Assembly (NCBI GenBank): GCA_003559375.1
Contig: PWLN01000350.1
Span: forward strand, 1-39,933
Direction of reading: 5' to 3'
DNA length: 39,933 bases
Origin: Balneolaceae bacterium
GTDB taxonomy: Bacteria > Bacteroidota > Rhodothermia > Balneolales > Balneolaceae
The notes under the pieces were generated by a model, which worked only from the letters and a program-made list of their open reading frames with translations, was not told the DNA's origin and made no database searches. This document shows positions 2,861 to 39,242 of the stretch, one piece after another. Numbering within the stretch: position 1 is the first letter of the stretch; every line of letters begins with the position of its first letter. The position numbers were made by a program, and so were the translations under genes.

Positions 2861-4543
2861 ATGGGTATTCAAGGGTGGACATTTCTCATTGTCGGGGCAA
2901 CATTCGCATTATACATCGGTATTGCGATATGGTCGCGTGTAGCATCTACAAGTGATTTTTATATTGCTGGCAGCAGGGTTCATCCCCTGGCCAACGGTAT
3001 GGCTACTGCTGCCGACTGGATGTCGGCCGCCTCTTTTATTTCAATGGCTGGAATGGTCGCTTTTTTAGGGTATGACGGATCTGTTTACCTGATGGGCTGG
3101 ACAGGAGGATATGTTCTTCTTGCTTTGCTTTTAGCTCCCTACCTGCGAAAATTCGGAAAATTCACGGTTCCCGATTTTGTAGGCGACCGGTACTATTCCG
3201 ATACTGCACGGGTTGTTGCCATTCTCTGTGCCATCTTTATCTCTTTTACCTATGTTGCCGGACAGATGCGTGGAGTTGGCATCGTATTTTCCCGTTTTCT
3301 TGATGTACCGATTACGCAGGGTGTCATCATAGGCATGGTGATCGTTTTCTTTTATGCCGTTCTCGGTGGAATGAAAGGGATTACCTATACTCAGGTTGCC
3401 CAGTATTGTGTGCTGATATTTGCCTACCTGGTTCCGGTTATTTTTGTTTCACTGATGATGACAGGAAACCCTATACCACAGCTTGGTTTTGGAGGAACTG
3501 TTGCCGATGGTTCCGGAGAATACCTTCTCGACCGTTTAAACGGTTTGATGACCGACCTAGGATTTGATAAATATACTGATGGTTCAAAGCCGACAATCGA
3601 TGTCTTTTTTATAACGGCAGCCTTAATGGTTGGAACAGCAGGGCTGCCCCATGTTATTATCCGGTTTTTTACAGTTCCGAAAGTGCGTGATGCCAGGATT
3701 TCAGCAGGTTATGCACTCATTTTCATCGTGCTTCTTTACAGCACTGCTCCTGCAGTTGCTGCATTTGTGAAAACCAATTTGATCACTACAGTAAACGAAG
3801 TACCGTACCGCGATGCTCCGGAGTGGTTCCATAACTGGGAGGCAACCGGCCTTCTCCGTTTTGAAGACCGGAATAACGATGGAATCATACAATATCATGC
3901 CGATCCTGCAATTAACGAACTCAGAATTGATCCGGATATCATGGTGCTTGCCAGTCCTGAAATTGCACAGCTTCCAAATTGGGTAGTAGGCCTTGTGGCA
4001 GCGGGGGGCCTTGCTGCAGCACTCTCTACGGCAGCTGGTCTTTTGCTTGTTTTGGCAACAGCCATCGCCCACGACCTTCTCAAACGGACCATGATTCCTA
4101 CGATGAAAGAAAAAACTGAACTGGGCATCGCGCGGATAACCGTATTCTTTACTGTTATGATTGCCGGTTATTTTGGCGTGAATCCGCCAGGTTTTGTGGC
4201 TCAGACTGTGGCATTTGCATTCGGACTTGCAGCCGCGTCCTTTTTCCCGGCCATTTTGATGGGCATCTTTTTCAAGCGAATGAACAAGGAAGGTGCGATT
4301 GCGGGCATGACAGCAGGTATCATTTTTACCGCATCATATATCATCTATTTTACGTTCATCAATCCAGAAATTAATAACGCAGATTACTGGTGGTTTGGAA
4401 TTTCGCCTGAAGGAATTGGCACTGTTGGAATGTTTATTAATTTCGCGGTTGCACTTGGTGTGGCAAAATTTACCAAAAAACCTCCTCAAAGAATCCAGGA
4501 GCTTGTTGAAAATATCAGAATTCCCCGCCAAATGGTAAAGTAG
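2861..4543 (+). CDS. sodium:solute symporter family (acetate-permease-like, VC_2705-type) large subunit
   Basis: 560 aa polytopic; SDFYIAGSRVHPLANGMATAADWMSAASFISMAG typical of the SSS family; paired with DUF4212. Confidence 0.88.
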   Translation: MGIQGWTFLIVGATFALYIGIAIWSRVASTSDFYIAGSRVHPLANGMATAADWMSAASFISMAGMVAFLGYDGSVYLMGWTGGYVLLALLLAPYLRKFGKFTVPDFVGDRYYSDTARVVAILCAIFISFTYVAGQMRGVGIVFSRFLDVPITQGVIIGMVIVFFYAVLGGMKGITYTQVAQYCVLIFAYLVPVIFVSLMMTGNPIPQLGFGGTVADGSGEYLLDRLNGLMTDLGFDKYTDGSKPTIDVFFITAALMVGTAGLPHVIIRFFTVPKVRDARISAGYALIFIVLLYSTAPAVAAFVKTNLITTVNEVPYRDAPEWFHNWEATGLLRFEDRNNDGIIQYHADPAINELRIDPDIMVLASPEIAQLPNWVVGLVAAGGLAAALSTAAGLLLVLATAIAHDLLKRTMIPTMKEKTELGIARITVFFTVMIAGYFGVNPPGFVAQTVAFAFGLAAASFFPAILMGIFFKRMNKEGAIAGMTAGIIFTASYIIYFTFINPEINNADYWWFGISPEGIGTVGMFINFAVALGVAKFTKKPPQRIQELVENIRIPRQMVK

Positions 4544-14976: not shown

Positions 14977-15352
14977 TTGGATTGATGGGTTGCCTGATAG
15001 ATGTTTTTGATCCATGAGCATTTGGCTCCGGGATAAGTAAAACAAATATAATATTCAGCTTTTCTTTGCATAGCGAACCTATCGAAGTGAGGGAAGGCTT
15101 ATAAAACGAAAGGTGAATTTGGTGTATATTTTCGATAGCACACCAGTACAGAAAAAATTCCTGCCTCACAGATGCCTCGCTCTCAAAATTTCAAAAAATT
15201 CTGAAAATTTTGTAAGAATATAAGGTTGATTGACCTCTTAATCGATGAAAACAGTATTGTAACCTGTTGTTGCACAATTTTATCTGTTATAACTCATCGC
15301 TTGGAAGCCTGTTGAACTCTTGCCAAATTGCGGATGTTTTTTTGGCTAAAGC

Positions 15353-15371
15353 CGCCTGTAAGTAGCAGGCG
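15353..15371 (+). promoter_or_regulatory. small hairpin in the rhodopsin leader
   Basis: CGCCTG - taagtag - CAGGCG ending 27 nt before the ATG; preceded by GGC-taaa-GCC. Confidence 0.35.
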
Positions 15372-15398: not shown

Positions 15399-16262
15399 AT
15401 GGAATTAATCAGTTCTTTAGGGAATTCCACGTTCGAAAATTACGTGGGTCTCGGTACGGGCTACACAGAGATGGCATATCAGATGTCAGCACATGTGCTC
15501 ACACTGGGTTATGCTGTAATGTTAGCAGGCCTTCTTTATTTTATACTTACACTGAAAACTGTTGCACCAAGATACCGGATATCCTCGGTTTTATCGGTGG
15601 TAGTAATGGTGTCTGCTTTTCTTCTTTTACTGGTTCAGCAACAAAACTGGACTGGAGCGCTCTCCTATGATGTCGAAACGGCAAGATACGTTCTGGGCAG
15701 TTCCACTGACCTCTTTAATAACGGATACCGTTATTTGAACTGGCTGATCGACGTTCCGATGTTGCTCTTTCAGATCCTGTTTGTAGTTACACTTACGAAA
15801 AGTAACTTTAGTTCAATCCGGAACGGTTTTTGGTTCTCGGGAACTGCCATGATACTCACAGGGTATGTAGGCCAGTATTATGAAGTAACAAACCCGGCAC
15901 TATTTTTTGTCTGGGGCTTTATATCAACTGTATTTTTTGTTCATATTCTTTATCTGATGAAAAAGGTGATAGATGAGGGCAAGGAAGGGGCTCCACCCAA
16001 AGCAAAGGCATATCTGGGAACCATCTGGAAATTGTTTTTATTTTCCTGGATGTTATACCCCGGAGCTTATTTAATGCCATACCTTTTTGGGGGTCTGGAA
16101 CCAGCAATTGACAGTGAGATGGCTGTTGTTGCACGTCATATCACCTATACAGTTGCAGATGTGAGCTCTAAAGTGATATATGGCATATTACTAACCCTGA
16201 CAGCTCAGGAAATGAGTAAAGCAGAGGGTTACGATTATGAAAAGATGGAGAATGCTATATAA
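15399..16262 (+). CDS. light-driven sodium pump rhodopsin (NDQ-type, KR2-like)
   Basis: 287 aa, seven TM; RYLNWLIDVPMLLFQ gives N114/D118/Q125 (NDQ motif, 15738-15773); Schiff-base lysine K258 in ADVSSKVIYG (16170-16172). Confidence 0.95.
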   Translation: MELISSLGNSTFENYVGLGTGYTEMAYQMSAHVLTLGYAVMLAGLLYFILTLKTVAPRYRISSVLSVVVMVSAFLLLLVQQQNWTGALSYDVETARYVLGSSTDLFNNGYRYLNWLIDVPMLLFQILFVVTLTKSNFSSIRNGFWFSGTAMILTGYVGQYYEVTNPALFFVWGFISTVFFVHILYLMKKVIDEGKEGAPPKAKAYLGTIWKLFLFSWMLYPGAYLMPYLFGGLEPAIDSEMAVVARHITYTVADVSSKVIYGILLTLTAQEMSKAEGYDYEKMENAI

Positions 16263-16290
16263 TTTAAATTAATAGTATCTGATATGAGCA

Positions 16291-16324
16291 AAATGCCTTG
16301 ACTTTCGAAGCAAGGCATTTTTTT
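16291..16324 (+). terminator. Rho-independent terminator of the rhodopsin gene
   Basis: AAATGCCTTG - actttcgaag - CAAGGCATTT followed by T-run. Confidence 0.88.
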
Positions 16325-16344
16325 CCCATTAAAGACCCTGAAAA

Positions 16345-17995: not shown

Positions 17996-18604
17996 TCATT
18001 CTGATAATTGAATTTTTTTTAAAAATTGTGCATAACCCATTGAATCTTCGCTTTTCAAAACGATTTTTTCAGTGATATTTTCCAGAAATGATTCACTCAA
18101 TACCGGGTAAGGGTCACCGAACCACTCTAATGCAAAGGTGTAATAAGTTTTTTTATTGATACCAATTTTTGTGTACTCAACCTGGCACCCACAGTCAATA
18201 ATTTCAGTAATGGGAACTATTTCAGGGCTCCTGTTACCATCTAAATCTTTTAATTTAATTCCCATCCTTCTTTTCAGGGTTGCGATCCATCTGTATTTAT
18301 TCAAGGATATAATTTCTTGGGCTACCGGATCAATCTGATTCACACCAAAACTCCATTTGATCCACTCTTCATAAAGGCCTTTTACGTTAGGCGAAAGCTT
18401 TCCCAATACAGGAGAGCTGATACGATGTTTCACTTCGATATTTCCCTCACGCAGTTTGATGTTCACGTCATCTTTTTCCAGCGGCAGATAAAAATCTGTT
18501 CTGGATTCGATATTTTCAAAATTTAAGCCATATCGTGTGAACCATTCAGATATCGAGCGGTCTGGTTGATCCGAAAACCATCTTATTTCTTTGCTTTTAT
18601 ACAT
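17996..18604 (-). CDS. conserved hypothetical protein, possible CYTH-like fold
   Basis: Start moved to ATG at 18604 (MYKSKEIRWFSDQPD...) because the track ORF start overlaps gltA and a terminator; RTDFYLPLEKDDVNIKLREGNIEVKHR resembles CYTH-type triphosphate-binding strands (weak). Confidence 0.55.
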   Translation of the reverse strand: MYKSKEIRWFSDQPDRSISEWFTRYGLNFENIESRTDFYLPLEKDDVNIKLREGNIEVKHRISSPVLGKLSPNVKGLYEEWIKWSFGVNQIDPVAQEIISLNKYRWIATLKRRMGIKLKDLDGNRSPEIVPITEIIDCGCQVEYTKIGINKKTYYTFALEWFGDPYPVLSESFLENITEKIVLKSEDSMGYAQFLKKIQLSE

Positions 18605-18645
18605 AGGTTGAAATGAGATCAAATGATGTGCAGATACTAAATTAA

Positions 18646-18678
18646 AAAGCCCTGTCAAACATAGTTTAACAGGGCTTT
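18646..18678 (-). terminator. Rho-independent terminator of citrate synthase
   Basis: AAAGCCCTGT...ACAGGGCTTT stem, followed on the minus strand by TTTTAAT. Confidence 0.8.
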
Positions 18679-18698
18679 CATATTTTAGAAAAAAGTTT

Positions 18699-19853
18699 TT
18701 AACGATCTTCGACTGGTGTCCATGGCAGGTTTTTTTCACCAATATAGAGAGCGCGTGGCCGAATGAGACGATTGTTTGCTTTTTGCTCGAAGAAATGTGC
18801 TGTCCAGCCTGAAATTCGGCTCATTGCGAAAATGCACGTGTACAGATCTGGTTGAATTCCTATGGAGTAGTAAACGGTTGCAGAGAAAAAGTCAACGTTT
18901 GGGTCGATATTTTTCTCTTCCTTCATAGTTTTTACCATGGCTTCCGACCATTCATAGAGGTATACATGACCTGTTTCTTCAGATAGCTCTTTCGACATTT
19001 TACGTAAATGATATGCCCTGGGGTCGAATGTTTTATAAACCCTGTGGCCAAAGCCCATAATCTTCTCTTTGCGGTCGAGCTTGGCTTTCGTGAAGGCAAC
19101 CGGATCAGCATTTTCACCCTGCTCTTTTAAAATAAGTAAAGTATTCATAACGGCAGTATTTGCACCACCATGAAGTGGCCCTTTCAGAGCGCCAATGGCA
19201 CCGCTTACAGCTGAGAAGATATCAGATTCTGTGGCACAGATACTACGGCATGTAAATGTTGATGCATTCATTCCGTGTTCTGCATGAAGTACGAGACATA
19301 AATCCATTACCCGTTCAGCAGCCTGTCCCGGCTTTTCATCATTCAACATGTACAGGAAATTGAATGCAGTGCTTCCATCCTTAAGTGGAGCTACTACCTC
19401 TTTGCCATTTCTGGCCCTGTCGAAAGCTGCGATAATGGTAGGAATCTGGGCGGTCATAATGATTGCATTGTATTCATCAGAAGCATCATCATCAACAAAA
19501 TCGGCTAACATGGAAACGGCAGATCGAACCACTGCCATGGGTTCGGCTTTTGGATTCGTAGTTTTTATATACGTGAGCACCGGTTCAGGCAGCTCTCTGT
19601 TTGCCTGTAGTTTTTTATGTAGTTCATCAAGTTCGGTTTGATTTGGAAGACGGTCATACCAAAGCAGGAAACAAACTTCTTCGAATGTGGCGTTTTCTGC
19701 AAGGGTGTCTATATGATAGCCGGAATAGATGAGTTCACCGGTCTGGCCGTTGATGTTACTTTTTGTAGTCGAAAAAGCAACAATTCCATCAAGCCCCTTG
19801 TTGATATGTGGATATTCGTTTAGATCAATATGTGATAGGTTGTGCTCCGCCAT
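18699..19853 (-). CDS. gltA: citrate synthase
   Basis: 384 aa; LKGPLHGGANTAVMNTL, KEKIMGFGHRVYKTFDPRA, SRISGWTAHFFEQ..NRLIRPRALYIG. Confidence 0.93.
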   Translation of the reverse strand: MAEHNLSHIDLNEYPHINKGLDGIVAFSTTKSNINGQTGELIYSGYHIDTLAENATFEEVCFLLWYDRLPNQTELDELHKKLQANRELPEPVLTYIKTTNPKAEPMAVVRSAVSMLADFVDDDASDEYNAIIMTAQIPTIIAAFDRARNGKEVVAPLKDGSTAFNFLYMLNDEKPGQAAERVMDLCLVLHAEHGMNASTFTCRSICATESDIFSAVSGAIGALKGPLHGGANTAVMNTLLILKEQGENADPVAFTKAKLDRKEKIMGFGHRVYKTFDPRAYHLRKMSKELSEETGHVYLYEWSEAMVKTMKEEKNIDPNVDFFSATVYYSIGIQPDLYTCIFAMSRISGWTAHFFEQKANNRLIRPRALYIGEKNLPWTPVEDR

Positions 19854-25246: not shown

Positions 25247-26089
25247 GTGTACCGCTTAACCAACTATGTTTTTGGATTTGCGATTGTGTATCTATTCATT
25301 CTTGAAGCCAGGATGAGTGATCATAATTTAATACTCATAGCTTTGGTTCTTTCGTCCACTGTGGCATTTATAGCATTTCTTTTGAATTGGATAACACTTG
25401 ATGCCATCAAAAGTATCATTATTCTGGGCACTATTGTGCTTGGTTTCAGTGGCTGGTATACTGCCCTTGCTGTTATTTTATTTTTTGTATCTGGCAGCCT
25501 GTTGGCCAGGCGGAATATGGCATACAGAGAGTCTAAAGTATTTACTTTTGTACCTGTATACCGTGATTATGGCAGGAGGGACGGGTATCAGGTTTGGGCC
25601 AATGGATTTTGGCTTGCCATATTTTGCATGGCCTGGTTTTTAACAGGCATACCGGGTTTTTATATTGCAGCGTTCACTGTTATTGCCGCTGCAGCGGCTG
25701 ATACCTGGGCTACCGAGGTTGGAACACACAAACCTGGTAACACATTTAATATACTCACGCGAAAACCTGTGGACCCTGGTGAGGACGGAGGTATCAGTTT
25801 AAAGGGCAGTTTAGCTGCTGTAGCAGCGGCAGCATCGGTTTCACTGATGCTGGTACTCAGCGATGAAATTATTCCGGGGAATGCAATCTTTCTGGTTTTT
25901 TTGTTTGGATTTTTAAGCTGCTTCATCGATTCTTTGCTTGGAGCATTTTACATACAAAAAAAATGGAATTTGACTATTCCTAAAGATTTTAGCGGCGGCA
26001 AAGACGGTTTTTCCAACAGCCTCATTAACTGGGTTTCTACAGGCATCAGTGGTACTCTTTCAATGATAATCTCACAGTTACTTTTTTGA
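25247..26089 (+). CDS. DUF92 family membrane protein (TIGR00297-like)
   Basis: 280 aa; GTG start; AAAAADTWATEVGTHKPGNTFNILTRKPVDPGEDGGISLKGSLAA; GFLSCFIDSLLGAFYIQKKW. Confidence 0.85.
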   Translation: MYRLTNYVFGFAIVYLFILEARMSDHNLILIALVLSSTVAFIAFLLNWITLDAIKSIIILGTIVLGFSGWYTALAVILFFVSGSLLARRNMAYRESKVFTFVPVYRDYGRRDGYQVWANGFWLAIFCMAWFLTGIPGFYIAAFTVIAAAAADTWATEVGTHKPGNTFNILTRKPVDPGEDGGISLKGSLAAVAAAASVSLMLVLSDEIIPGNAIFLVFLFGFLSCFIDSLLGAFYIQKKWNLTIPKDFSGGKDGFSNSLINWVSTGISGTLSMIISQLLF

Positions 26090-27396
26090 TGAAATGGTAT
26101 AAACGACTGCACTGGCAAATCATAATCGGGCTCTTACTTGGTTTATTATGGGGATTGCTATCTGGATTTATTGGCCTTACAGATTTTACTTCCGGATACA
26201 TCAGGCCGGTTGGAACAATCTTTATTGACCTTTTAAAACTCATCGCTGTTCCACTGGTACTGGCCTCACTGGTAGTTGGGGTATCAAGCCTTAACGACAT
26301 GGCCCGTTTATCAAAAATGGGAGGTAAAACGATTGGAATATATATGGTTACAACTGTTCTTGCCATAACTATTGGATTGACGGTTGTAAATGTACTTCAG
26401 CCCGGTGCCACATTGCCCGATGAGACCCGAAGCGGGCTCATGGAAAGTTACAGTGAAAATATTGAAGAAAGGGATTCTGCTGCTGTAAGAGTACAAGAGC
26501 GCAATATTATGCAGTTTTTGGTAGATATTGTTCCAGAAAACTTTTTCCAGTCAGCAAGTAATAATACGAATATGCTTCAAATTGTATTTGTTGCAATTCT
26601 TCTTGGAATAGGCCTAATCAATATACCGGCACAAAAAGGGGAACCGCTGATACTCTTCTTCGAGTCTCTGAATGATGTGATCATAAAGATTGTGGATCTC
26701 ATTATGAAGACAGCACCTTATGGAGTATTTGCACTTATGGCGGCGGTAATCGTTGATCTTACCGGTGACGATATTGGTCAGGCGCTTGTTTTACTCAGTG
26801 CATTAGGGTGGTATTGTATAGCAGTATTAATTGGGCTGCTTTTACATGTTTTGATTGTTTACTCGAGCCTTTTCAAGCTCTTCAGTAAAATGAAACTGAG
26901 AGATTTTTTCAAAGCAATACGTCCGGCAGTATTGCTCGGCTTTAGTACGAGTTCCAGCCTCGCCACACTTCCAGTTACCATGGACAGGGTTGAAAAAAAC
27001 CTCGGAGTGAGTGAAGAAGTTTCAAGTTTTGTATTACCAGTTGGTGCAACCATCAACATGGATGGAACAAGTCTTTATCAGGCTATCGCAGCTGTTTTCA
27101 TAGCTCAGGCGCTTGGCATGGACCTTACCATAGCCCAACAATTAACCATTGTGCTCACAGCAACAGCTGCATCGATTGGGGCGGCCGGGGTGCCAGGCGC
27201 TGGTATCATTATGTTGGTTATCGTTTTACAATCTGTTCAGGTTCCAATCGAAGGAATCGCATTGATATTGGGAGTAGACCGGATTCTTGATATGGCAAGA
27301 ACCGCAGTCAATATAACTGGAGATGCGGCAGTATCAGTGGCAGTGGCATACTCAGAAAACAAACTGGGTGCGCTTCATTTTGATGAAGACGACTAA
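26086..27396 (+). CDS. dicarboxylate/amino acid:cation (Na+/H+) symporter, DAACS family
   Basis: 436 aa; GFSTSSSLATLPVTMDRVEKNLGVSEEVSSFVLPVGATINMDGTSLYQ, AAGVPGAGIIML; ATGA overlap with the upstream gene. Confidence 0.93.
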   Translation: MMKWYKRLHWQIIIGLLLGLLWGLLSGFIGLTDFTSGYIRPVGTIFIDLLKLIAVPLVLASLVVGVSSLNDMARLSKMGGKTIGIYMVTTVLAITIGLTVVNVLQPGATLPDETRSGLMESYSENIEERDSAAVRVQERNIMQFLVDIVPENFFQSASNNTNMLQIVFVAILLGIGLINIPAQKGEPLILFFESLNDVIIKIVDLIMKTAPYGVFALMAAVIVDLTGDDIGQALVLLSALGWYCIAVLIGLLLHVLIVYSSLFKLFSKMKLRDFFKAIRPAVLLGFSTSSSLATLPVTMDRVEKNLGVSEEVSSFVLPVGATINMDGTSLYQAIAAVFIAQALGMDLTIAQQLTIVLTATAASIGAAGVPGAGIIMLVIVLQSVQVPIEGIALILGVDRILDMARTAVNITGDAAVSVAVAYSENKLGALHFDEDD

Positions 27397-38318: not shown

Positions 38319-39242
38319 TCATATGTTGAATGAATAAAGTTTATCAACAATGAGCATATGAGGCAGTGTCAGTACGCTAATCAGAATAAACATGAGTGTC
38401 AAAAATTTGTCAGCCAATCCTGTTATATCATTGATAAATAACAAAATGAGTAGTCCTCCAATTGAAACGAGAGTAAAAGGCAAAGCAAGCCTAAAAAAAG
38501 TTAAAATGCTTAACTCTTTGTCTTTATGTGCAAAAAAACGCTGCATTTGATAAATATGTCCAGCAGAATGCCAGACTGCAAAATAGAGAGCAAATCCGGT
38601 TAATGGGCCACAGATTTGAAATAATAATATCAGAAGCACCAGATCAGACCAGTAGGCCAGTGGCTTGCGTATTTGTTTTATCAGAGTGAGTAACAGAGAA
38701 TAAGCTATATAGAGAGATACAATTCCTATATAGAGGGCAATGTAAGATTCTGTCAGAAAACCAAATTCTATAAGTTCTGTGCCAGTTGCTTGTGCAATTA
38801 TTGGCAACGTTACAGATAGGTCAGAAAAAATGATTAGACCGATAATTAACATTCCGCGCAATACATAAGCCAAATGATTTTTATTACCATCAAGGAGATG
38901 ATCTTCCATATCTGCCTGCCCAAAATGGTATATGGAAATCATTAAAAAGAGTGCCATTCCAACAACGGGTGTAATTAACCACAATAACCCAATAAATATC
39001 ATGATCAAGATATAGCTGCTGTAAAAATAAAGTGTTCCGTTTTTTTTATTCACTGAACTATTTAATTCTGCCGAGATAATGTGGTCAATTGCACCATGCG
39101 GTATTCCAATAAAAAAGACCGAGACAACCACAATGTAAGGTGCCATCGCATCATGAATGTGTGGTATGAACAGCGCGGCGATTATGAATATGAAGGAGGT
39201 TGAACCCGCGAATAAAATGAAAGTGAATGAAGACCTGAACAC
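38319..39242 (-). CDS. blh: Brp/Blh family beta-carotene 15,15'-dioxygenase (retinal-forming)
   Basis: 307 aa polytopic; FIGIPHGAIDH, YHFGQADMEDH, VWHSAGHIYQMQRFF, LPHMLIVDKLY histidine motifs. Confidence 0.92.
   Translation of the reverse strand: MFRSSFTFILFAGSTSFIFIIAALFIPHIHDAMAPYIVVVSVFFIGIPHGAIDHIISAELNSSVNKKNGTLYFYSSYILIMIFIGLLWLITPVVGMALFLMISIYHFGQADMEDHLLDGNKNHLAYVLRGMLIIGLIIFSDLSVTLPIIAQATGTELIEFGFLTESYIALYIGIVSLYIAYSLLLTLIKQIRKPLAYWSDLVLLILLFQICGPLTGFALYFAVWHSAGHIYQMQRFFAHKDKELSILTFFRLALPFTLVSIGGLLILLFINDITGLADKFLTLMFILISVLTLPHMLIVDKLYSFNI

Follow-up and report, generated by a model that had tools for sequence, protein, structure and literature searches.

Which ion does the rhodopsin of a salt-lake-type Balneolaceae bacterium transport, and can the cell supply it with retinal? 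The question is raised by an open reading frame on contig PWLN01000350.1, of which a stretch of 39,933 nucleotides was analyzed (the window). From the sequence alone, the frame had been read as the gene of a light-driven Na+ pump of the KR2 type, recognizable by the NDQ motif in helix C. We compared the protein with characterized pumps, placed it in a tree of its relatives, and searched the surrounding DNA and the genome for genes and signals that bear on its use.

Results and Discussion

The reading frame starts with ATG and comprises 287 codons (Table 1). With a PF01036 match above the curated cut-off (E-value 2.5e-43, 148.6 bits, cut-off 24.6) and the TM7 lysine K258, its product is a type 1 (microbial) rhodopsin; NCBIfam assigned no family to the protein. 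The structure of IaNaR, the Na+ pump rhodopsin of Indibacter alkaliphilus (8JH0, PMC10679507), was matched with 8.6e-130 and 435.6 bits, and chains of KR2 with about 1e-110 and about 370 bits. Since these values and that for PF01036 are so strong, a chance match is excluded. Ordered by score, the solved structures comprise Na+ pumps (370–436 bits), Cl− pumps (about 160 bits), xanthorhodopsin (121 bits) and proteorhodopsins (below 40 bits), H+ pump structures reaching 121 bits at most. Direct alignment among characterized pumps covered KR2 and IaNaR, with pairwise identities of 63.3% and 74.6%, respectively.

Table 1. Features of the rhodopsin locus and of the retinal genes in the window.
Feature	Position	Strand	Evidence
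Predicted Na+-pumping (NDQ) rhodopsin gene, 287 aa	15399..16262	+	ORF, PF01036, structure matches, alignment, trees
Helix C segment R111-Y-L-N114-W-L-I-D118-V-P-M-L-L-F-Q125 with NDQ motif	15729..15773	+	alignment
TM7 segment A-D254-V-S-S-K258 with second Asp and retinal Schiff-base lysine	16155..16172	+	alignment
Filter codons S63 and T266	15585-15587 and 16194-16196	+	positions of KR2 N61/G263 by alignment
TTGAACTC box, 87 bp before ATG	15312..15319	+	common to near relatives
5'-leader hairpin CGCCTG-TAAGTAG-CAGGCG	15353..15371	+	position conserved, sequence variable in near relatives
Intrinsic terminator 3' of the rhodopsin gene	16288..16325	+	fold; stem kept in position in relatives
blh-type beta-carotene 15,15'-dioxygenase gene (makes retinal), GTG start	38319..39242	-	PF15461, 2.1e-54
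C-terminal part of a lycopene cyclase gene, truncated at the contig end	39242..39933	-	sequence match

In the alignment R111, N114, D118, Q125, D254 and K258 correspond to KR2 R109, N112, D116, Q123, D251 and K255, and all six residues of the RNDQDK set of NDQ Na+ pump rhodopsins (NaR) are present. The numbering of the helix C residues in the original prediction was exact, and the retinal lysine and the TM7 Asp which it had located in ADVSSK are indeed found there. Identity to KR2 further includes, in KR2 numbering, E11, Y25, H30, S64, S70, F72, L74, L75, Q78, D102, N106, Y108, W113, Q157, E160, R243 and S254. Of the features described in the KR2 and IaNaR literature, the counterion residues, the residues of Na+ uptake (S64 and Q123), the Arg gate and the extracellular Glu-Glu-Arg cluster, here E13, E162 and R246, are kept. 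H30, mutation of which disturbs the KR2 pentamer, is conserved as H32. The pump-linked residues that are not kept are the two filter positions, KR2 N61 and G263. NaR Subgroup 1 (KR2-like) is defined by Leu or Ile at the position of KR2 L74 and the presence of D102 (PMC11006869). With L76 and D104 at these positions the protein belongs to this subgroup, whereas ErNaR and SrNaR of Subgroup 2 share the NDQ motif and carry Glu at the L74 position (PMC11006869).

Eighty loci of relatives were fetched. In a first tree the branches of the DTE group were inflated; hence it was repeated with a better alignment and 20 DTE rhodopsins from the same bacterial family (14 DTE rows added), NTQ chloride pumps being absent. 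In the repeat tree, which thus holds NDQ and DTE sequences, a single branch with an SH-aLRT support of 100 parts the two types. The original prediction had named a placement outside the NDQ clade as its refutation; in this tree of NDQ and DTE sequences the protein instead lies deep on the NDQ side. The first tree had placed it within a ten-row NDQ clade (support 99/98) which consists nearly completely of Balneolaceae. The closest relatives are two Balneolaceae MAGs with 94–96% identity, the nearest protein being 96% identical. The gene is not rare but common in Balneolaceae and related Bacteroidota; a rhodopsin is present in 47 of 92 genomes of the family. Three NDQ rhodopsins on contigs labelled Gammaproteobacteria (L025), Verrucomicrobiales (L069) and Thalassobius (L061) nest among Balneolota/Bacteroidota sequences, which reflects either transfer or mis-binned contigs.

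These data also bear on the possibility that a DTE-type proton pump or an NTQ-type chloride pump has converged on the NDQ motif. In favor of such an origin stands the shared membership in PF01036 and nothing more; the tree placement, the identity to Na+ pumps over the whole length and the presence of all three cluster residues argue against it, leaving it a negligible probability. At the three motif positions NDQ is found instead of the D-T-E of a DTE proton pump or the N-T-Q of an NTQ chloride pump. Identity as a DTE proton pump is refuted by the sequence.

The gene itself appears intact. Comparison with the related locus L003 gave a dN of 0.04 versus a dS of 3.6; to the two nearest orthologues dN amounts to 0.03–0.04, with synonymous sites saturated or nearly so. 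The protein is thus under strong purifying selection. A search of the genome, which is 92% complete, yielded no second rhodopsin.

The original prediction had also proposed a terminator of its own for the gene, and this proved to be real. The region 16260–16335 folds with −17.3 kcal/mol (z = −3.1) and forms the stem AAAAUGCCUUG...CAAGGCAUUUU followed by U's; at this position a stem of other sequence occurs in three relatives (L002, L003 and L006). A simple consensus terminator scan listed none, probably due to its loop limit. With 422 bp to the upstream spermidine synthase gene and a convergent gene downstream, the rhodopsin gene is likely monocistronic. A TTGAACTC-like box lies 79–88 bp upstream of the ATG here and in nine relatives and is a possible promoter element. 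Between box and start codon a hairpin is located that recurs at the same place in eleven related loci. In most of 18 near relatives it stands roughly 27–52 bases before the ATG, where the arms differ in sequence and still pair. MAFFT alignment of the 5' leaders registered the arms poorly, and a per-sequence test against shuffled sequence was used. The combined p was 2e-7 for the 18 near relatives, a value that is too small because the region was picked once the sequences had been inspected and these are related to each other, and 0.98 for 23 more distant loci. Neither the Rfam nor the tRNA scan of the window gave a hit, so the hairpin matches no known RNA family; as a guess, it might stabilize the 5' end of the mRNA.

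Upstream, the rhodopsin gene is preceded by genes of the polyamine pathway coding for AdoMet decarboxylase, pyruvoyl arginine decarboxylase and spermidine synthase; downstream follow the convergent alpha-L-fucosidase gene and the citrate synthase gene. The polyamine block is retained 5' of the rhodopsin gene in six relatives, which suggests vertical inheritance of this location within the group. For an ORF of 248 aa (17996–18742, minus strand) Pfam gave no family. Read from its TTG start, it overlaps the citrate synthase ORF at this end, and the actual start codon therefore probably lies more internally. The window also holds genes of two Na+-coupled symporters of the families SSF (2861–4543, plus strand) and SDF (26086–27396, plus strand), which fits a cell that exploits a Na+ gradient. 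A search of the genome for NqrB gave a marginal and partial match only, near a contig start.

A pump of this kind would remain idle in a cell that lacks retinal or keeps the gene silent. In favor of such a state, contig ends of the draft assembly interrupt the lycopene cyclase gene and an intact copy cannot be read; its N-terminal part is probably located on contig C442. Purifying selection, the conserved terminator and a complete blh gene speak against this reading, which we consider highly improbable. The blh and lycopene cyclase genes are found on the same contig, 22 kb from the rhodopsin gene, and their overlap by 1 bp suggests a crtY-blh operon. A gene of the phytoene/squalene synthase family occurs elsewhere in the genome. 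The cell probably produces its own retinal via CrtY and Blh. In seven relatives no more than about 3 kb separate blh from the rhodopsin gene; given the distance of 22 kb here, a rhodopsin-blh operon is not claimed.

The filter pair N61/G263 of KR2 has been described as conserved across the NaR family (PMC10572131), and changes at these residues alter K+/Cs+ transport (PMC10608830). Here, S63 and T266 are found, as in IaNaR. Over 106 NDQ rows, which are skewed to near relatives of our sequence and include duplicate loci, the pair is Ser/Thr in 85, Asn/Gly in 11, Ala/Thr in 8 and Ala/Ala in 2. Asn and Gly co-occur at these positions without exception (11/11). Throughout the branch of our sequence, the pair is either Ser/Thr or Ala/Thr. 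A far-reaching reading would make Ser/Thr the common filter state of the NDQ clade and Asn/Gly a state mainly confined to flavobacterial pumps, with a measurably different Na+/K+/H+ selectivity of the S/T pumps; taken as a whole, we regard it as unlikely. For the protein itself, the effect of filter changes in KR2 could indicate a selectivity other than that of KR2, e.g., appreciable K+ or mainly H+ transport. IaNaR, however, carries the same pair and pumps Na+ (PMC10679507), and the K+-pumping mutants of KR2 have bulky or Pro residues rather than Ser or Thr, which makes a different selectivity very unlikely.

Na+ export is the best reading by homology because of the conserved residues, the constraint on the protein, the single rhodopsin and the retinal genes. 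With high confidence, we therefore regard the protein as a predicted light-driven outward Na+ pump of the KR2/IaNaR type (Subgroup 1). The original assignment to the NDQ Na+ pumps agrees with the tree, the conserved KR2/IaNaR residues and the retinal genes. Judged from close homologues, light would isomerize all-trans retinal on K258 and the Schiff-base proton would move to D118. Coming from the cytoplasm, Na+ would then pass S63/T266, S66 and Q125 and be held near N114/D118 and D254. A swing of R111 and opening of the E13-E162-R246 cluster would release it to the outside. If Na+ is absent, H+ would probably be pumped, as in KR2.

In comparison to known systems, IaNaR is similar in the NDQ motif, counterions, extracellular cluster, D102 equivalent and S/T filter pair. 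It differs in that our sequence has one additional residue in the F-G region and Leu instead of Asn after T266; its host is a Cyclobacteriaceae species, unlike ours. KR2 of Krokinobacter eikastus (PDB 4XTL, 3X3B and others) has the same NDQ motif and active-site residues and differs at the uptake filter. 'Candidatus Cyclonatronum proteinivorum', a soda-lake Balneolaeota isolate reported in 2018, belongs to the same phylum and has an NDQ rhodopsin; its cells showed light-induced alkalinization of Na+ medium (PMC6243061). Within the NaR cluster this rhodopsin was presented as a lineage of its own (PMC6243061). Putative Na+ rhodopsins were reported in 2016 for the soda-lake MAG T5-Br10_B2g13 (LKNA01, PMC4766312). 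Its loci L012 and L041 code for NDQ rhodopsins 86–89% identical to ours with nothing essential different, and L041 falls in the supported ten-row clade. Na+ rhodopsins of soda-lake Balneolaeota were thus already published in 2016 and 2018, and the present protein is a further orthologue of a pump already described.

Conclusion

The locus apparently carries an ordinary, intact gene for a light-driven Na+ pump, as far as can be judged from sequence comparison. The Balneolaceae branch of Na+ pumps thereby gains another orthologue, in a cell with its own retinal genes. The Asn/Gly pair of KR2 is the basis of ion-selectivity engineering. With Ser/Thr or Ala/Thr in place of the pair described as conserved, the branch to which our sequence belongs offers a natural comparison set for work on selectivity.
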